Source: Methanothrix harundinacea
Lineage (GTDB): Archaea; Halobacteriota; Methanosarcinia; Methanotrichales; Methanotrichaceae
DNA: 43,015 nucleotides
Direction: 5' to 3'
Assembly: GCA_001509375.1 (NCBI GenBank)
Contig: LGFT01000028.1
Coordinates: 1-43,015, forward strand
Under the pieces are notes generated by a model. That model did no database searches, was not told where the DNA came from, and was given only the letters and a program-made list of their open reading frames with translations. Shown piece after piece: positions 25,325 to 34,998 of this stretch; positions within the stretch are counted from its first letter, which is position 1, and the number at the start of each line of letters is the position of its first letter. Position numbers and translations under genes: made by a program.

Positions 25325-26197
25325 TCAGATCCGACCCCCTGTTCTGAAGGCTTCTTTGATAAGATCCTCTCTGAAGAACTCTCCCGCATCCCCGCCCACG
25401 GCGTAATTGTAGACCGCCGCCGAGTATATCCCGCCCAGGGTCGAGCTGATGAGCCCGATGCCCAGAAGGAGCAGGACGAGGAGGATGGCGATGGCGATGG
25501 CGGCTAAGGGAGACGTATCAGCGACGAAGACGATGGCAGCGATCCCCAGGATCACGGCAGCGATCGCAAAAAGGCCGAAGACGAGACCGATGCTGATACC
25601 ACCAACCACCTGCTCGCCCCAGGTCTTTTTCAGAAGGCTGGAGCTCCGCCTGATCGCCTCCCCGGGCCCCACGTCTTCGGTCACCAGGACCGGGACCGCC
25701 AGAAAGGTCGCCAGGTTCCAGGCCATCCCCACGATGGACGAGGCGAGGGCCCCGATCAGGGCCAGGGGGTTTCCCCTCCCCTCAGACTCCCCAGCCTGGG
25801 AGAATAGCTTCAGGATCATCCCCACGGTGGCGGCGATGGCGGCGTAGCCCAAGATAGAACGGAGGTGGCTCTTCGCGATCCCAAAGCCGTCCCCCAGAGT
25901 CGGATCGCCGCCCCGGAGCCTTATCAGGGCCGCGCCCACTAGGGCCGAGTTGGCGAAGATCACGACGGAGTACTGGACGAAGTAGAAGGCGAAGACCACC
26001 ACAATTTCGGCAACGCCGGGGTCCTCTGCCGCATCAATGAAAAACCCCGTCGAGTTGAGGGGAAGAAAGAAGGCGATAGAGACGATCAGAAGGGCGATTG
26101 CCGAGATGATCGGATAGATCAAAAGCTCCCTGTCGGAGCGCAAGACCATGGCGCTGGCCTTCACCAGCGCCCAGCTATTTCCCACCCGTTCGAACAT
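25325..26197 (-). CDS. DUF6159-like polytopic membrane protein
   Basis: The 290-residue protein starts VGNSWALVKASAMVLRSDRE, resembling DUF6159 proteins, and has about six hydrophobic segments rich in Ala, Ile and Val. Pairs of spans surround a cytosolic DVGPGEAIRRSSSLLKKTWG motif. No transport motif is recognisable. It lies 97 bases downstream of the secreted-protein gene on the same strand and converges with the helicase gene, so it may belong to the envelope locus or have its own promoter. Confidence 0.82.
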   Translation of the reverse strand: MFERVGNSWALVKASAMVLRSDRELLIYPIISAIALLIVSIAFFLPLNSTGFFIDAAEDPGVAEIVVVFAFYFVQYSVVIFANSALVGAALIRLRGGDPTLGDGFGIAKSHLRSILGYAAIAATVGMILKLFSQAGESEGRGNPLALIGALASSIVGMAWNLATFLAVPVLVTEDVGPGEAIRRSSSLLKKTWGEQVVGGISIGLVFGLFAIAAVILGIAAIVFVADTSPLAAIAIAILLVLLLLGIGLISSTLGGIYSAAVYNYAVGGDAGEFFREDLIKEAFRTGGRI

Positions 26198-26294
26198 GTT
26201 TATCTCCCAAAAGTTATTTTATTGGTACCATCAAATATCGTCAGTGTTTATAAAATCTGCGCTGGAGGTTCGAGCCATCGGCGAAGAGGGTCTC

Positions 26295-26855
26295 CTAATA
26301 TCCGGTCAGGTTGTAATCGATCACCACCCCTATCCCCTCCACCTCGTAGCCGAGAACCTCCACCTTCATGGAATCCTCGGTTTTGGAGAAGGAGTACTCG
26401 AGCCCCTCCGAACAGCTGACGGCCAGCATCGCTGCATCTTTTGGGAGATAGAAGGCCAGATGACACTCGTTCCAGCCGAGATCGGCCTCAAACTCAAGCC
26501 TCGTCTCATCACCCAAAGTCGAGGTCAATCCGCTGCTTTTGGCGTAAAGCTCCCTCGTATCCTCGTCGTAAAAGAGCTCGGCGCCCTCGAGGAAGGCGAG
26601 ACCTTCCGGCTCAGCCTCGAGATATCCGATGATGAGAGCCCTTCCCTCCGCCTCCACGTAGACGTCCAGGACGATGCTTCCGGCGGCCGCTCCTGCTCCG
26701 CCTTCGCCATCTGCGCCGACGAGATCGTCGGCCAGCACCGAGGACGGGGGGAGGGGCGAAAAGGCTACGGCGGCCAGGAGGAGATAGACCATGACCGCCG
26801 ACGGCGATCCCCAACGGAGAGGCCGAGATCTCTGATCTCCTTCGATCAGGCCCAT
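26295..26855 (-). CDS. Secreted stand-alone paralogue of the regulator ectodomain
   Basis: The 186-residue protein has an N-terminal signal-like segment (MVYLLLAAVAFSPLPPSSVL; an internal Met at 26792 is an alternative start). The mature part aligns by eye with the ectodomain of the regulator encoded at 27832-28893: VLDVYVEAEGRALIIGYLEA against VLDIYADDAGKALVTGYANG, then YDEDTRELYA against YDEDASQLYA. It lacks the membrane span and winged helix. The start is 6 bases after the stop of the preceding gene, implying co-transcription. It may bind the same extracellular ligand or partner; function is not established. Confidence 0.75.
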   Translation of the reverse strand: MGLIEGDQRSRPLRWGSPSAVMVYLLLAAVAFSPLPPSSVLADDLVGADGEGGAGAAAGSIVLDVYVEAEGRALIIGYLEAEPEGLAFLEGAELFYDEDTRELYAKSSGLTSTLGDETRLEFEADLGWNECHLAFYLPKDAAMLAVSCSEGLEYSFSKTEDSMKVEVLGYEVEGIGVVIDYNLTGY

Positions 26856-26861
26856 GGTCCC

Positions 26862-27830
26862 TCAGGTCCCAGAAGCTATCGTCTGGAGCGTCTCTCGGGG
26901 CCACCACCTCGGATCGGCCCAGGAGCCTCCTTCGGGCAAACCAGCCCAGGGACCACCGCGCCTCAGGTCCCAGGAGATTATAAAATGGCGATCAGGCTCC
27001 AATGGGCATCCGAGACATCCCGGGCTGGTCAGGATCATCTCCAGGAATGGGTCCCGAATCTCTGGGCCGCTCCATGCAAAAAATGATGGCACGCCTCCCT
27101 GGGGACGAATATATCCGGCCTCCAATCCTTCCAGATCGCCTATCCAGGCCGGGCAGGACTCCATCCTGCACCCTCTGCCGACCGACGAATCCAGGATAAC
27201 CAGGTAGCTTCCGGCACGGGGGCCGCCGAGTATCAGGAGGGTCCCTACCCCAATGGAGGAGCCGTCCTCCCGGTGGCGGGTCTCGATGCTGACGGTGCCG
27301 GCGATCTCGTGGTCGGGCCCGGGAGCCGTTGGAATAGCGCCCCAGACCGGCTCCATCAAATCCGCCACCAGAGTCGATTTTCTCCCCTCCGATGTTAGGT
27401 TGAGGTTTTCGAGGAGATAGTGGGCATGATCGAGGCGGATGTTCCCTCTATAGCTGTAGGCCCCATCGTCGCCCTCGATCTCGGCCTTGATCTCCCCGAG
27501 GGTCCTGTTTTCCCCCAGAAGCCGGCGAACCTCTGATGGGTCGATCCCCCTCGCCCTCTCCACCTGGAGCCTCACGGACAGGGTCTCGTTCTCGGGGCCA
27601 AAGGCAATCCCCCTCTCCGAGCGGACGATGGATATCAGAACTGGAGGTCTTTCCCCGGGATGGCCCATGTGGGCGATTTGACAGAAGACAAAGCAGGGAT
27701 CCTTTGCCATAATCTCATCTCCTCCGCCTCCGCACCCCCCCAAAGGAAAGGCGAGGCCCTCCCCAACAAGGCTCATCAACAGCAACGCGCCCAACCCCGG
27801 GCCCAAGACCCCTCTGAAGACAGATCTCAT
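26862..27830 (-). CDS. Secreted Cys-containing protein of unknown function
   Basis: The 322-residue protein starts with a signal peptide (MRSVFRGVLGPGLGALLLMS) and has a Gly- and Cys-rich early segment with CGGGGD and CFVFC. Two more Cys pairs lie near the end (GRGCRMESC and GCLGCPLE), suggesting disulphides or metal binding outside the cell. The rest is beta-rich with no recognised domain. The frame is open upstream into the regulator gene, but ATG 27830 lies right after the regulator stop with GGAGG about 12 bases before it, so I use it. It is the middle gene of a three-gene operon. Confidence 0.7.
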   Translation of the reverse strand: MRSVFRGVLGPGLGALLLMSLVGEGLAFPLGGCGGGGDEIMAKDPCFVFCQIAHMGHPGERPPVLISIVRSERGIAFGPENETLSVRLQVERARGIDPSEVRRLLGENRTLGEIKAEIEGDDGAYSYRGNIRLDHAHYLLENLNLTSEGRKSTLVADLMEPVWGAIPTAPGPDHEIAGTVSIETRHREDGSSIGVGTLLILGGPRAGSYLVILDSSVGRGCRMESCPAWIGDLEGLEAGYIRPQGGVPSFFAWSGPEIRDPFLEMILTSPGCLGCPLEPDRHFIISWDLRRGGPWAGLPEGGSWADPRWWPRETLQTIASGT

Positions 27831-27831
27831 G

Positions 27832-28893
27832 CTAATACACATCCTCCCCCCTCTCGCAAATCGTCCAATCCCGATCGTCTTCCCCTCTGAGCCGCTGGGA
27901 CAGTTCAATGACGTTCGTTCTTCCCCATTCTTTCTTGGTTACGATATTTCTCCTCTCCAGAGAGATTATTATCCCGGTTAGGGAGGATTTGGGTATCCCC
28001 GTCTCGTACCTGATATCTGCCTGGGTCATCTTACCGTCGTGCTTTATCAGAGACTTCAGGACCGACCTCTCCCTCTCGGTGAGGGTATCCATCACCGCCA
28101 CCATCCCCGCCGAGATCGACGAATCGGCCTTCTCGTCCTCCGATGAAGGAGGACGAGAGGCGTCTGGGATCGAAACGGCCTCGGCCCCATGGCTCTCCTC
28201 AGCCTCTGGGACTTCAAGAAGGGCCTCGTCCGCCTCGAAGCCATCAGAAGTTTTTGAAGCTCCTTGCAAGGGAGAGCTGCCCATCTTTCTCAACTTGGCG
28301 GCCGCAACGATGGCGATCAGGGCGACGATGGCTCCGACCAGGATGATGGGGGCTGAAGAGCTCTCTTCTGGCGGAAGGCCGCTGGCTGCCCCCTCCACAT
28401 GGCCGCCGGTGAGGGGCTGGCGGTACCGGACGGCGGCAGTGGGGCCCGTTACGTCGTAGCCGTGAAACTCCACCATAAAGGAGTCGCTGGAGGAGGATAC
28501 GAGGTAATCAAGCCCCACGGTTCCGGTGATGTTGCTGAGCTGAACATTTTCTGACAGATAAAAGGTGACATGATACTCGCCGTAGATCCCCTCCGCAGGC
28601 AGCCTGATCTCCCATTCGTCCCCACTCTTCCATGTAAGAGCGTTGGTCACCGCGTAAAGCTGGCTGGCATCCTCGTCGTACTGGTATTCTGAGGCGTTCA
28701 GAAAGGGGAGACCTTCTATGCCGTTGGCATATCCCGTCACCAGAGCCTTGCCGGCATCGTCGGCGTAGATGTCGAGGACGAGGCTCCGGGAATCGGAGCT
28801 CTCTTCCTCCTGAGCCCAAGAGCCCGAGCTGATGATGATAACGATTACAGTGAGGGTCAACGCCAATCGGCTCAGTCTTTCGATATCCTTCAT
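27832..28893 (-). CDS. Membrane-tethered winged-helix transcription regulator
   Basis: The 353-residue protein has a signal peptide (LALTLTVIVIIISSGSWA), an ectodomain at about residues 36-165, a transmembrane span APIILVGAIVALIAIVAAAK (about 181-200), a charged linker, and a MarR-like winged helix at about 268-345 (LTERERSVLKSLIKHDGKMT, then IPKSSLTGIIISLERRNIV). The topology puts the ectodomain outside and the DNA-binding domain inside, making it a one-component transmembrane regulator. It heads a minus-strand operon and is divergent from the exported-protein genes at 29-33 kb, its likely targets together with its own operon. Confidence 0.8.
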   Translation of the reverse strand: MKDIERLSRLALTLTVIVIIISSGSWAQEEESSDSRSLVLDIYADDAGKALVTGYANGIEGLPFLNASEYQYDEDASQLYAVTNALTWKSGDEWEIRLPAEGIYGEYHVTFYLSENVQLSNITGTVGLDYLVSSSSDSFMVEFHGYDVTGPTAAVRYRQPLTGGHVEGAASGLPPEESSSAPIILVGAIVALIAIVAAAKLRKMGSSPLQGASKTSDGFEADEALLEVPEAEESHGAEAVSIPDASRPPSSEDEKADSSISAGMVAVMDTLTERERSVLKSLIKHDGKMTQADIRYETGIPKSSLTGIIISLERRNIVTKKEWGRTNVIELSQRLRGEDDRDWTICERGEDVY

Positions 28894-28940
28894 CGAGATC
28901 CTTTTGCAAAGCTCATTTTTGAGTCGGTGGTTGGAGGTCG

Positions 28941-28951
28941 AATATATTTAA
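28941..28951. promoter_or_regulatory. Shared TATA region of the divergent envelope operons
   Basis: AATATATTTAA can act in either direction. It is 48 bases before the regulator ATG on the minus strand and about 70 bases before the plus-strand gene, which also has CGTATAATTC at about 28979. An 8-base palindrome GTTCGAAC (29000-29007) adjoins the plus-strand ribosome site. Confidence 0.4.
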
Positions 28952-29020
28952 GATTTGGCGACGTGCTTACTACGAGACGTATAATTCATAAATGATAAAG
29001 TTCGAACAAGGATGTTCTAT

Positions 29021-30259
29021 ATGAGCTGGAAGTCTTCAAGTCGCGGGATCGCCTCGGCCACAGCCCTCCCGTCTCAAGCACTGCTGGTCCTCCTTTTATC
29101 ATCCTCCATCCTGGGGGCCGGCGAGCTAGTGGCAAACAGGTATGGCGAGATCGATGAAACGCCGTTGTTAACGGCACAGGAGGAGGTTTTAGATCTCAAT
29201 CTCAGCTCTGGATGGGTGAATGCCAACGAGGGGGAGACCACAGGATCGATGGAACCTGAAGATGTATCGGCTTATTCCGATGAATCTATCCTGAGCGATG
29301 AGGATGCGGCCGAGACCCTTGATCCGGAGACGGCCTTCTATGCGGAGGCTGAGGAGGTCGAAGAAGAGGAGGAGGAGGAGGCCGAGCTGACGATGGCCGA
29401 GGCGGTGGTCTACGTCTTCAACAACGACGACGACACCCTAAGCATATCCCTCTTCATAGACTCGGAACTCTTGGGTACCGAGGACGTCTCCAAGGACAAA
29501 GAGAAGAAGTTCGGAAACTACCCTCTCGTGACCGGATCCCACAGCTTCAAGATCACCTGGTGGGATGACGACACCAAGAAGACTCACCAGGAGGAGCTGG
29601 TCGCAACGGTGGAGGGTGTGACTGCGGTCACCCTCTACACCACCCTGAACAAGGGGCCTGAGAAGTTCGAGATGAATGTTATGTTGAGAAACGAGAACTC
29701 CAAAGACCTCGAAGCCTACCTCTACATCGACGGTGAGTATGAAAAGCAGAAGACCGCCAAAAAGGAGAGCACCACCGACTTCGGCAAATTCGACATCGAG
29801 GAGGGGGTCCACGTGCTCGCAGTGAGGTGGCAGGACCCGGAGACGAAGATCGATTATGAGAAGAGAAAGACGATCAGGGTCGACGGAAAGGACGTCGTCA
29901 CCTTCCACGCCCCCGCTGGGATGACCTTCCAGACCGACGAGGAGGCCGCCTCAAAGGCCGCCGCCAAAACGACCACCAGCAGCAAGACTGAGACCACCTC
30001 AACGAAGACGGCCTCGACTTCAGCCACCACAAACGATGCGGTAGAGGGGGGGGAATCACCATCAAAGACCGGGACGGGCGACTCAAACAAGCCGTCCTCA
30101 AACTCCGGCGAGGTCAAATCCGCGGCTGATAAAGGCCAAAGCGAGCCAGAAACCAATGAGAACAACGGGGACGCCGGTCCCGATGTTACGAATGTGACCC
30201 TCTACCTCACGACGATTGGAGCGATCCTGGCCATCTACATCATATTCTTCAGGCGTTGA
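29021..30259 (+). CDS. Acidic exported protein with two beta-domain repeats and C-terminal anchor
   Basis: The 412-residue protein has a signal peptide (ALPSQALLVLLLSSSILGAG), a strongly acidic segment with a run of Glu (about residues 105-118) and two similar domains. The first contains AVVYVFNNDDDTLSISLFID and the second MNVMLRNENSKDLEAYLYID. A Ser/Thr/Lys-rich stalk follows, then a C-terminal hydrophobic helix (LYLTTIGAILAIYIIFFRR). This layout suits a surface protein anchored in the cytoplasmic membrane, perhaps glycosylated in the stalk. The start at ATG 29021 is favoured by AAGGATG seven bases ahead; ATG 29012 overlaps that site. Confidence 0.8.
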   Translation: MSWKSSSRGIASATALPSQALLVLLLSSSILGAGELVANRYGEIDETPLLTAQEEVLDLNLSSGWVNANEGETTGSMEPEDVSAYSDESILSDEDAAETLDPETAFYAEAEEVEEEEEEEAELTMAEAVVYVFNNDDDTLSISLFIDSELLGTEDVSKDKEKKFGNYPLVTGSHSFKITWWDDDTKKTHQEELVATVEGVTAVTLYTTLNKGPEKFEMNVMLRNENSKDLEAYLYIDGEYEKQKTAKKESTTDFGKFDIEEGVHVLAVRWQDPETKIDYEKRKTIRVDGKDVVTFHAPAGMTFQTDEEAASKAAAKTTTSSKTETTSTKTASTSATTNDAVEGGESPSKTGTGDSNKPSSNSGEVKSAADKGQSEPETNENNGDAGPDVTNVTLYLTTIGAILAIYIIFFRR

Positions 30260-30264
30260 TTTGA

Positions 30265-31845
30265 TTGAGAGCTTTCCTGGCATATATCCTCCTGGCATCG
30301 ATGATCGGATCAGCAGTGGAGTGGGGAGACCGGGCTGAAGGAGATCTCCGCTGGGGAGAGACGCTTCAGATGGGCGATTACACCCTGGAGGCGGCAGACT
30401 TCACCCCCGAGGATGTGACGCCGAGGATGGTGATGCTGAAGCTTTATAAAAATGGGGAGCTCATCGCCACCCGGGCGCTGAAGTCCGGCGACAGCTTCTC
30501 CCTCGACGACGAGGTGAGGGTGGTGGCCCAGGAGGTCAGGAGGAGGGACTACCTCGTCGACGAGTCGGCCGAGCCCCGCGCCAGGGTGGTCCTTTTCGTC
30601 AGGGCGGTCCCCGAGCTTCAGATCCGCGTCGTCTCAGACGAGGACGTCTACAAGGCCGGAGATTGGGCTAAGCTCGAGATCGAGATCGAGAACGTCGGCA
30701 CGGCGGACGCGGAAGAGGCGGTGATCGAGGTGACTTCGGACCCGGCGATCTTCCGCTCGAGATATTCGAGATCGATCCTCTCCCCCGGCGAGGTCTGGGA
30801 CGAGGACCCGGATACGGAGGATATCGACCCCATCGCGGAGAGGTTCAAGGTGCCTTCGGTCCCCGGACCCGAAGAGGTCTCTCTTAGGGTTCATGCCCGG
30901 TACCTCGACTCCGAGGTGGGGGTTCACGAGTCCTGGGGCGGGACGAGCTTCGACATCTTCGGACCCCTCAAGCTCTACAAGCGCACAGAGGATGAGATCA
31001 GGTTCGGAAAGAGCGGCTACGTCCACCTCACCGCCAGCAACGGCGGCGATAGAGCTCTCGAGGCCGATCTCTCAGACTCGACGGGCAGAGACTTCGCGGC
31101 GGACGCCGCTCTGAGATGGAAGATGACGATCCCGCCGGGAAGCTCAGAGGCCGTCAGCTACACCATAAGCGCAAAAAAGCCCGGTGAGGGGCAGATCCTT
31201 CCGCCCGCCGAGGCGGTCTACACCATCGACGGGAGGGCATACACTGTCAAATCGACGAGCGCCATCGTCGACGTCATCGGTCCTCTGGTGGAGGTGAAAA
31301 AGTCGGTCTCATCGTCAAAGATCGAGAAGGGCGAAGAGGTTACGGTGAACCTGACGGCGAAGAACGTCGGCAACCGGAGGACGAAGGCATCGGTGAATGA
31401 GACGATTCCCTCCTGGGCCCGCCTAGTCTCCGGGGAGACGAAGTTATCCCACCTCCTCCTGCCAGGGGAGGCGGCCGGACTGGAGTACACCATATCCTGC
31501 CCTGAGGCGGGCAGCTTCGAGATCCCGCCCACCAGCGTCTGTTACAGGGACGAAGAGGGGACCGCCTGCACCCTGGAATCCTCTCGCCTCCGGATAACGG
31601 TCGAGGACGAGGAGATAGACGACTCCACGGCCGCCGAGATAGACGGGAACGGAACGGCCCTTCCATCGCAAGCCTCGGATGAAGAGAACGGCATCGAGAT
31701 GAAAGGTGATCAGAGGTACGACGGCAAAGACGAGGCCAAAGGAGGTGGATCGGTGAGCGGAAGAGCCCAGGAAGAGGGGTCCGTCCTCTGGGCGATACCG
31801 GTTCTGATCCTGATCATATTCGTTGCCTTAGACCGATACCTTTAG
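30265..31845 (+). CDS. Anchored exported protein with CARDB/NEW3-like repeats
   Basis: The 526-residue protein has a short signal peptide (RAFLAYILLASMIGSAV), a beta-rich N-terminal domain starting WGETLQMGDYTLEAADFTPE, and two or three immunoglobulin-like domains with the CARDB/NEW3 look: DWAKLEIEIENVGTADAEEA, YVHLTASNGGDRALEADLSD and EEVTVNLTAKNVGNRRTKAS. A hydrophilic stalk leads to a C-terminal span (VLWAIPVLILIIFVALDRYL). It begins with TTG five bases after the previous stop, so it is the second gene of the operon. Its role is likely structural or adhesive at the cell envelope; this is inferred. Confidence 0.8.
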   Translation: MRAFLAYILLASMIGSAVEWGDRAEGDLRWGETLQMGDYTLEAADFTPEDVTPRMVMLKLYKNGELIATRALKSGDSFSLDDEVRVVAQEVRRRDYLVDESAEPRARVVLFVRAVPELQIRVVSDEDVYKAGDWAKLEIEIENVGTADAEEAVIEVTSDPAIFRSRYSRSILSPGEVWDEDPDTEDIDPIAERFKVPSVPGPEEVSLRVHARYLDSEVGVHESWGGTSFDIFGPLKLYKRTEDEIRFGKSGYVHLTASNGGDRALEADLSDSTGRDFAADAALRWKMTIPPGSSEAVSYTISAKKPGEGQILPPAEAVYTIDGRAYTVKSTSAIVDVIGPLVEVKKSVSSSKIEKGEEVTVNLTAKNVGNRRTKASVNETIPSWARLVSGETKLSHLLLPGEAAGLEYTISCPEAGSFEIPPTSVCYRDEEGTACTLESSRLRITVEDEEIDDSTAAEIDGNGTALPSQASDEENGIEMKGDQRYDGKDEAKGGGSVSGRAQEEGSVLWAIPVLILIIFVALDRYL

Positions 31846-31905
31846 GGCCCGGATGATGAAGAAGATCTCCGAATTCCAGGAGAACTAGGAGGGAAGAAAG
31901 GAGAG

Positions 31906-33078
31906 ATGCTCAAAACCATTCCGATCCCATCACTGATCAGAGCAACCTTAATCCTGTTGATCCTCGTTCATCCCGCCCTAGGCCAGGCCCCGGATTTGGA
32001 GTGGGAGGTGGCCTTCGGCGGTGCTGGGGATGAGAGGGGGCTCGCCCTCCAGGAGACGAGAGACACCGGCATCGTCGTCGCGGGCTACACCTCCTCGAAG
32101 GGGGTGGGAAAAAAAGATCTCTGGCTCATCAAGACCGACTCCGAGGGGGAGATGGAGTGGGAGAGGACCCTCGGTGGTCCCGCCGACGACGAGGGATGGG
32201 CCGTCCTGGAGACGAAGGACGGCGGCTATCTGTTGACGGGGTTCACCGAGTCCGAGGGCTCTGGGGGAAAAGACCTCTGGCTCGTCAAGACCTACTCCGA
32301 CGGCTACGAGAGATGGAAGAAGACCTTTGGAGCTGCCGGCGACGATTGGGGCGTCGCCGTCCTGGAGACGAAGGACGGGGGATACGCCGTGGCCGCTGTC
32401 ACCACCTCCCGGGGGTCAGGCGGCTCCGACGGCTGGATTTTGAAGACCGACCCTGATGGGAACCTGGAGTGGGAAACGACGATGGGCGGATCCAAGAACG
32501 ACGGCATCTCCTCGATCTTGGAGATTGAAGACGGCTACCTCGTCGTCGGCTTCACCGAATCCTACGGCGCGGGCGGAAAGGACATCTGGCTCGTGAAGAT
32601 GGACCCAGAGGGCGAGAGGATCTGGGAGAAGACTTTCGGAAAAGGTGGCGATGAGAGGAGCAACTTCGTCCGGGAGATGGAGGATGGCTACGTCGTCGTA
32701 GGCGTTTCGGATTCCGGGGGCTCAGGGGGAAGGGACGTCTGGCTCATCAGGACCGACATTGAAGGGGAGACGATCTGGGAGAAGACCTTCGGCGGCTCTG
32801 GAGACGACGGCTGCTGGTCCGCCGCTGAGGGAGAAGGCGGCCTCATCTTCATTGGCTACACCGAATCTCAAGGAAGAGGGGACCAGGACCTCTGGCTGTT
32901 AAAGATCTCCCCCGATGGGGAGAAGGCGTGGGAGAAGACCTTGGGAGGATCGGGCTTCGATCTCGGAAGGGCGATCGTCTCGACGAAGGATGGCGGATGG
33001 GCGATGACGGGATGGACTGAATCGATGGGATCGGGGGGCGAGGATCTTTGGCTGGTGAAGATCGAGGGGAGATCATGA
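31906..33078 (+). CDS. Exported seven-repeat beta-propeller protein
   Basis: The 390-residue protein has a signal peptide (ATLILLILVHPALGQA) and then seven repeats of about 52 residues, each ending with a DLWLVKTDxxG-like strand and starting with WEKTFGGxGDDxG. Seven such units should close into a beta-propeller. No catalytic residues are evident; extracellular propellers commonly bind partners or ligands. A GGAGAG site precedes the ATG. It is 60 bases after the CARDB-like gene and its last codons overlap the methyltransferase start. Confidence 0.85.
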   Translation: MLKTIPIPSLIRATLILLILVHPALGQAPDLEWEVAFGGAGDERGLALQETRDTGIVVAGYTSSKGVGKKDLWLIKTDSEGEMEWERTLGGPADDEGWAVLETKDGGYLLTGFTESEGSGGKDLWLVKTYSDGYERWKKTFGAAGDDWGVAVLETKDGGYAVAAVTTSRGSGGSDGWILKTDPDGNLEWETTMGGSKNDGISSILEIEDGYLVVGFTESYGAGGKDIWLVKMDPEGERIWEKTFGKGGDERSNFVREMEDGYVVVGVSDSGGSGGRDVWLIRTDIEGETIWEKTFGGSGDDGCWSAAEGEGGLIFIGYTESQGRGDQDLWLLKISPDGEKAWEKTLGGSGFDLGRAIVSTKDGGWAMTGWTESMGSGGEDLWLVKIEGRS

Positions 33079-33707: not shown

Positions 33708-34018
33708 GATTTGAGGAGGAGTGGTCGCACGCTACTGATTTCTCAGATCGGAGCACGCCTTCGCGAACCTATTTAAAAATATGTAACAAATCCGGGTAGT
33801 CGCCAAAATCTAGATGAATCCAAAAAATGGGCCGAGATCTGATAAAACCGGAGAATTGATGTAAGATCATCTGGATATATAATCATAAGTTGGGGTCAAA
33901 GGTTTAAAAAGTTGTACGTTTGTGCTCCAGAACTTTTTTGCTAATATTGAGCAAAAATGTTGTGCTCCAATATACTTATATGCGAAGAACAATGACGTGT
34001 TATCACAGAGGTGCTTTG
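33708..34018. other. AT-rich regulatory interval before the DUF1699 genes
   Basis: This 311-base gap has no gene. It contains TATA-like sequences (TTTAAAAA near 33903, CTTATATG at 33975-33982), an 8-base inverted repeat and a pair of 10-base direct repeats, all described separately. Confidence 0.6.
33920..33969 (+). promoter_or_regulatory. Paired direct repeats flanking an inverted repeat, upstream of DUF1699
   Basis: TTGTGCTCCA occurs at 33920-33929 and 33960-33969, exactly 40 bases apart. Between them TTTTTGCT (33935-33942) and AGCAAAAA (33950-33957) form a perfect inverted repeat. The set ends just before the TATA candidate CTTATATG at 33975, where an operator would be expected. Confidence 0.5.
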
Positions 34019-34423
34019 ATGATGAAAATCAGAGTGGTCAGTTCAAAGAAGGAGATCGACGATCTCAATCGAAACGAACAGATGATACACTTGGCCTTCA
34101 GGGCGTCGAACACGGACATATTCAGGCTCCTACAGTCTTGTCCCAGGCTCAGGGCGATCCAGGTACCTTCGTCCTATTATAAGACCATGTCTCATGCAGG
34201 TCAGATGTTTTTGGAGATGCAGGGCGTGGAGATCATCGAGGGGGATGTCTGGGGCCACAGAAAGGATATCGACGAGTACTACACCGTCGACGACAAGGTA
34301 ATGGAGAGGATAAATAACCTCCAGTCCGAGGGGATAAACGCGGACGAGATCGCGGGAAGGATCTCCAGGGAATCGAAGCTCTCCCCTGCGATGGTAAAGT
34401 ACATGATAAAACTGACAACCTGA
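34019..34423 (+). CDS. DUF1699-family protein, copy 1
   Basis: The 134-residue cytosolic protein starts MMKIRVVSSKKEIDDLNRNE and shares the family core LAFRASNTDIFRLLQSCPRL and GVEIIEGDVWGHRKDIDEYY with the neighbouring copy. The C-terminus (INADEIAGRISRESKLSPAM) looks like a small helix-turn-helix-like bundle. DUF1699 is found in methanogens and its function is unknown. An ATG at 34019 with GAGGTG upstream is preferred; the frame is open 33 codons before it, into the promoter. It is followed 170 bases later by a paralogue of identical length. Confidence 0.85.
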   Translation: MMKIRVVSSKKEIDDLNRNEQMIHLAFRASNTDIFRLLQSCPRLRAIQVPSSYYKTMSHAGQMFLEMQGVEIIEGDVWGHRKDIDEYYTVDDKVMERINNLQSEGINADEIAGRISRESKLSPAMVKYMIKLTT

Positions 34424-34593: not shown

Positions 34594-34998
34594 ATGATGA
34601 AGATCAGGATAGTGAGCTCCAAAGATGATATAAAAGATCTCACGAGAAACGATCAGACGGTCCACCTGGCTTTCAGGGCCTCCAGCACTGACATGTTCAA
34701 ACTGCTTCAGTCCAGTCCAAGGCTGAGGGCCGTACAGGTTCCGCCCTCCTATTACAAGAACATGCCCAATACCGGCCGAGCTTTTCTGGAGACGCAAGGG
34801 GTGGAGATCATTGAAGGTGATGTCTGGGGATACAGAAAGGACATCGACGAGTATTACGTCATAAACGACAAGATTATAGAGAGAATAAACGATCTCCATT
34901 CTGAGGGGCAGAATGTCGAAGAGATCTCATCGAGGATCTCCTGGGAGTCTAAGCTCTCTCCGGCGATGGTCAACTACATCATCAAACGGTCAACTTGA
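34594..34998 (+). CDS. DUF1699-family protein, copy 2
   Basis: This 134-residue paralogue of the preceding gene is the same length and starts MMKIRIVSSKDDIKDLTRND. It keeps LAFRASSTDMFKLLQSSPRL, VPPSYYKNMPNTG and GDVWGYRKDIDEYYV. Differences are scattered, so the duplication is not recent. It lacks the repeat-rich promoter of copy 1 and may depend on read-through or a weak promoter of its own. Function is unknown; it converges with the GTPase gene. Confidence 0.85.
   Translation: MMKIRIVSSKDDIKDLTRNDQTVHLAFRASSTDMFKLLQSSPRLRAVQVPPSYYKNMPNTGRAFLETQGVEIIEGDVWGYRKDIDEYYVINDKIIERINDLHSEGQNVEEISSRISWESKLSPAMVNYIIKRST

Follow-up and report, generated by a model that had tools for sequence, protein, structure and literature searches.

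A gene for a transmembrane transcription regulator (REG) and a downstream gene for an exported partner protein (CYS) form the core of the locus analyzed here, and their joint inheritance in three archaeal lineages suggests that the two constitute a simple signaling pair leading from the cell exterior to DNA. The pair was found in a 43,015-nt stretch of Methanothrix harundinacea DNA (hereafter, the window), at a divergent locus spanning positions 25325–33078 in which all seven open reading frames were confirmed in position and strand. The earlier description of this locus, made from the sequence only, is sound, but the wider claim attached to it should shift from the surface genes that face REG to the REG–CYS pair.

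REG (27832–28893, minus strand; 353 aa) has a signal-like segment (residues 4–22), an ectodomain of about 130 aa N-terminal to a single, strong membrane span (181–199, mean hydropathy 2.81), an acidic linker (14 D/E versus 4 K/R) and a C-terminal winged helix (271–331) that matches Pfam DUF7343 (PF24034; E = 3e-14; 53.1 bits against a curated cut-off of 27.6). This architecture bears out the proposal of a membrane-tethered winged-helix regulator with a signal peptide, ectodomain and one span, and domain order and fold predict a single-pass transmembrane transcription regulator of the one-component kind. The winged helix is nearly invariant across homologues (PKSSLTGI..LERR, GRTN). The ectodomain is modeled as all beta (mean pLDDT 93), with no convincing match to any Pfam family when 85 members were scanned and nothing significant among PDB sequences. 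A fold search with the ectodomain model (window positions 28405–28797) retrieved a yeast oligosaccharyltransferase chain of about 433 aa (TM-score ~0.6, E ~0.008), which, judged by chain length, is probably Ost1/ribophorin I; a distant fold relation is possible and serves as a lead only.

CYS (26862–27842, minus strand) follows REG so closely that the two genes overlap or abut at 27828–27842. The TTG at 27908 previously taken as its start is unlikely; translation probably begins at one of the ATGs at 27842 or 27830, positions that overlap the REG stop codon or come immediately after it, and CYS may be translationally coupled to that stop. The protein is exported, as anticipated, and carries a hydrophobic segment only at its N-terminus; the cysteines for which it was singled out vary among homologues, so that conserved cysteines are rejected as a feature of the family. 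Its conserved domain of about 155 aa (modeled over residues ~62–220) comprises eight strands, with two helices inserted between strands 2 and 3, and Foldseek retrieved as best matches mostly calycin-type, lipocalin-like barrels (the fHbp barrel, nitrobindin, nitrophorin and avidins), all of them weak (calycin-type E 0.005 or worse, none below 0.001; TM-score ~0.3 by query length). We tentatively regard the modeled fold as a lipocalin-like barrel. The third gene of the minus-strand operon, ECTO2 (26295–26855), encodes a soluble, secreted protein paralogous to the REG ectodomain (39% identity over 128 aa), as had been recognized from the sequence. Searches of Pfam and NCBIfam with CYS, ECTO2 and ACID2, the exported protein encoded opposite REG, gave no useful match.

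Gene neighborhoods were mapped for 67 REG loci, comprising 38 from Methanotrichaceae (9 from this genus and 29 from other genera) and 29 from outside the family (18 from ANME-1, 10 of the Methanoperedens type and 1 from f36), and CYS was counted as linked when encoded on the strand of REG and no more than 2.5 kb downstream of it. By this measure, CYS was linked to REG in 57 of the 67 loci: 9/9 in this genus, 23/29 in other Methanotrichaceae, 17/18 in ANME-1, 8/10 of the Methanoperedens type (both misses being contig ends) and 0/1 in f36. Some of the remaining 10 loci are contig ends; those in genus g11 and at L045, L061 and L064 are real separations, and CYS paralogues are also found without an adjoining REG. 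The linkage is maintained while the flanking genes change. A soluble ectodomain copy follows REG in 4 of the 9 loci of this genus, in 10 of the 29 of other Methanotrichaceae and in none of the 29 outside the family; an exported protein with N-M-T-(L/I)-x-E-(I/L) repeats (the N-M-T-repeat protein) is encoded near REG in 18 of the 29 loci of other Methanotrichaceae genera. A MacB-type ABC operon, consisting of an ATPase, an exported CARDB-like protein and a MacB_PCD/FtsX permease, lies within 6.5 kb of REG in 9/10 Methanoperedens-type loci, 6/29 loci of other Methanotrichaceae and 1/18 of ANME-1.

Several individual neighborhoods are recorded here as observations in their own right. At L045 (8829–14539; G015:C1), three REG paralogues stand in a row with exported TPR-type proteins between them and no CYS alongside, representing a local expansion of the regulator. 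In two g11 genomes (L103 in G049 and L104 in G048), the N-M-T-repeat protein, CYS and the ectodomain copy are clustered on a contig apart from REG, implying that this part of the neighborhood can travel without the regulator. In the Methanoperedens-type loci L151 and L154, a gene between CYS and the MacB operon, similar to the a7 genes of L157 and L158, encodes a small exported protein that carries a CxxCH motif and ends in a PGF-type sorting tail; this is possibly a single-haem protein.

REG was present in all 50 Methanotrichaceae genomes searched, and a search across the taxonomic order gave the same 50. Across 393 genomes of the phylum, a profile of the REG ectodomain matched 45, which comprise Methanotrichaceae, the large and distant family f9 and two further single genomes, the matches outside Methanotrichaceae being Methanophagales (ANME-1) and Methanoperedens; the ectodomain was absent from the listed genomes of f2, a family of the same class that by inference is Methanosarcinaceae. 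Both REG and CYS occurred in 42 of the 393 genomes, REG only in 3, CYS only in 4 and neither in 344, counts that take no account of kinship. In a quick tree of REG, with lineage labels assigned from record titles and family membership, the ANME-1-type sequences group together (SH-aLRT 93) near Methanotrichaceae, and the Methanoperedens-type sequences occupy a separate, strongly supported long branch. REG may have been transferred between the ancestors of Methanotrichaceae and those of ANME-1, but the inner support of the tree is modest. One contig with REG, CYS and a MacB operon (L159) comes from a record titled Nitrospirae bacterium, isolate Kmv42, and is probably a mis-binned Methanoperedens contig.

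Transmembrane transcription regulators (TTRs) are widespread in Bacteria and Archaea (PMC10269533), and the membrane-bound regulators of archaea include arCOG00381 and ArnR (PMC4858521). REG resembles all of these in combining a DNA-binding domain (here, DUF7343) and at least one transmembrane region (here, 181–199) in one polypeptide, with no phosphorelay, but differs in its ectodomain without a Pfam family, its fixed exported partner gene and its soluble ectodomain copy. Membership of the C-terminus in DUF7343, which is MarR/TrmB/IclR-like, gives no function by the family name and leaves the ectodomain as a separate matter. Closer in gene organization are the co-component systems VtrA/VtrC and ToxR/ToxS, where the gene for a membrane-tethered regulator has next to it, often with an overlap, one that encodes a periplasmic partner of the lipocalin-like type, and PsaE/PsaF, another such system (PMC9214523). 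Like these, REG–CYS joins a tethered helix-turn-helix regulator to a small exported protein whose gene overlaps or abuts that of the regulator; CYS, modeled with eight strands and with weak calycin-type matches, may also have the barrel fold of the known partners. The co-component regulators, however, have an N-terminal helix-turn-helix, a span and a C-terminal periplasmic domain, whereas the sensor of REG is N-terminal and its winged helix C-terminal; theirs is CadC-like and that of REG DUF7343/MarR-like and archaeal, with no sequence relation shown; and CYS differs from their partners in having only an N-terminal hydrophobic segment. A further trait of co-component systems is an obligate heterodimer of the two extracytoplasmic domains; the REG–CYS contact is putative. 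Given its reversed topology and different winged-helix family, REG–CYS is not a member of the co-component class, although by analogy it may work in a similar way.

To our knowledge, little is understood about envelope sensing in archaea that lack an outer membrane, and we know of few archaeal transmembrane regulators with a defined partner or target. A search of one literature collection on DUF7343, COG2512 and ANME-1 with MacB regulators yielded nothing relevant, and the locus is not mentioned in the searched main-text passages of the Methanothrix DIET papers. The presence of REG–CYS in Methanothrix-type methanogens, ANME-1 and Methanoperedens makes it a compact candidate sensor in organisms relevant to methane cycling. 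If REG–CYS works as proposed, it would show that the design of a regulator plus an exported partner evolved not in enteric bacteria alone but also in archaea.

Starting from the computed domain order, fold, linkage and distribution, we infer a contact between REG and CYS, a signal, DNA targets and a direction of regulation. In the reading that we prefer, and to which we assign even chances, REG is a transmembrane one-component regulator that acts with an adjacent exported partner and controls the operon that encodes it and, probably, genes for the envelope or for export. The N-terminal beta domain, located outside the cytoplasm, would sense, probably in concert with CYS, a state of the envelope or of the cell exterior, and this state would be transmitted through the single membrane helix and the flexible acidic linker to the winged helix. 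The latter would control the operon in which REG itself resides, REG–CYS–ECTO2 in M. harundinacea, extended in relatives by the MacB-type exporter and the N-M-T-repeat protein, with ECTO2 acting as a competitor or co-sensor for the REG signal. In this genus, REG would have been placed head to head with an older ACID2–CARDB–PROP operon, which may or may not be under its control. We tentatively put forward a more specific and less likely version, in which this is a reversed-topology archaeal pair of a beta receptor and an exported lipocalin-like partner that would respond to a hydrophobic or envelope-derived ligand and control MacB-type export and envelope genes, in Methanothrix-type methanogens and in two groups of anaerobic methane oxidizers.

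The alternative that survives best, which we regard as possible but not probable, is that REG mainly regulates a MacB-type export or envelope-stress response comprising MacB, the N-M-T-repeat protein and CYS, with a logic like that of bacterial exporter-linked sensors, and in this genus acts in trans on the separate MacB locus. MacB/FtsX-type ABC exporters are operon neighbors of REG–CYS in several lineages, and REG and CYS form one contiguous stretch with the MacB-type operon in loci of g4, g9 and the Methanoperedens type; in this genus, the exporter is found at another locus. In M. harundinacea, this is a single cluster on a separate contig (G000:C88; L100:5410–10583) that contains the N-M-T-repeat protein, two CYS paralogues and the MacB-type ABC operon, and the same cluster is present in five relatives, with two CYS-type copies in five of the six genomes and one longer copy in G009. 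Comparison with other lineages thus suggests that REG, CYS, the N-M-T-repeat protein and the MacB operon belong together. Against a direct regulatory connection, the palindrome TGAACGGTNNTNGTTCRG, which occurs upstream of the MacB cluster and has exactly one site in each of 6 of the 9 genomes of the genus (with one mismatch allowed), does not occur between REG and ACID2, and a search for an operator shared by that region and the MacB operon within the genus found none. Furthermore, three members of the genus have REG but no close homologue of the MacB permease.

The plus-strand genes facing REG encode the exported trio that was read from the sequence. ACID2 (29021–30259) is an acidic protein with a signal segment and a C-terminal anchor, as described, but its start was moved from 29012 to the second ATG, at 29021, which is probably the correct one, because the first ATG is not conserved. 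CARDB (30265–31845), the operon partner of ACID2 across the family, is a CARDB/DUF11-type exported protein with Pfam matches to BatD, DUF11 and CARDB and a C-terminal span or anchor. PROP (31906–33078) is an exported beta-propeller with seven repeats of about 52 residues starting at 33, 85, 137, 189, 240, 291 and 342, which resembles SBBP-type propellers and, by sequence, also part of CylK chains in the PDB.

The sequence-only reading held that REG reads the state of the envelope and sets the expression of these divergent genes, forming a surface-remodeling system, and gene order speaks both for and against this view. REG and ACID2–CARDB are head to head in all nine genomes of the genus, which is not attributable to chance, and the DNA between them contains, in all nine species, two nearly invariant blocks separated by a spacer of variable length. 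Block 1 (28940–28960, minus strand; GAATATATTTAAGATTTGG on the plus strand) is TATA-like and probably represents the REG promoter; its core, TTAAATA-ATTC, also occurs upstream of REG in several other Methanotrichaceae genera, with nothing clear in ANME-1 or Methanoperedens. Block 2 (28977–29001, plus strand; ACGTATAATTCATAAATGATAAAGT), located in front of ACID2, is the probable promoter or operator of that gene and occurs only once in the genome at up to three mismatches. Outside the genus, however, ACID2 is divergent to REG in none of 58 loci (among them 0/29 in other Methanotrichaceae, 0/18 in ANME-1 and 0/10 of the Methanoperedens type); in other genera, ACID2 and CARDB lie side by side at sites unrelated to REG (in G046, at 1.11 Mb versus 0.60 Mb), and 20 of the 50 family genomes have REG with no ACID2 detected. 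Regular occurrence of REG homologues without the exported genes, the outcome named in advance as speaking against the linkage, thus holds for the genes of the plus strand, whereas it does not hold for CYS. In addition, a copy of block 2 with six mismatches precedes ACID2 at a comparable place in g11, where the contig displays no REG, so that conservation of this block is no proof of control by REG; it may simply be ACID2's own promoter. Control of ACID2–CARDB–PROP by REG is possible within this genus; as a general rule it is not supported, and we consider a surface-remodeling system of this kind unlikely.

The gene divergent to ACID2 in other genera encodes a small membrane protein (L212–L220), the homologue of which in M. 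harundinacea resides on C88 (L100:13986–14420), about 3.4 kb past the MacB operon, suggesting a swap of partners by rearrangement. The head-to-head order of REG and ACID2 is probably the product of a rearrangement in this genus and was subsequently retained, the ACID2–CARDB pair being older. The still more doubtful view that REG–CYS–ECTO2 is a conserved envelope operon with REG targets elsewhere, the facing genes being a mere leftover of that rearrangement, fits the position of the small membrane protein, but all nine congeners keep both the order and the two intergenic blocks.

At the far end of the minus-strand genes lies a DUF6159 membrane protein (25325–26197, minus strand; E = 8e-72), which had been noted as lying beyond them. 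It adjoins the cluster in just two members of the genus, M. harundinacea and one other (L033), and was rejected as a member of the unit. Beyond PROP, the window encodes two closely similar proteins of about 134 aa in tandem (33920–34423 and 34594–34998), which are kept in most of the genus members with flank sequence.
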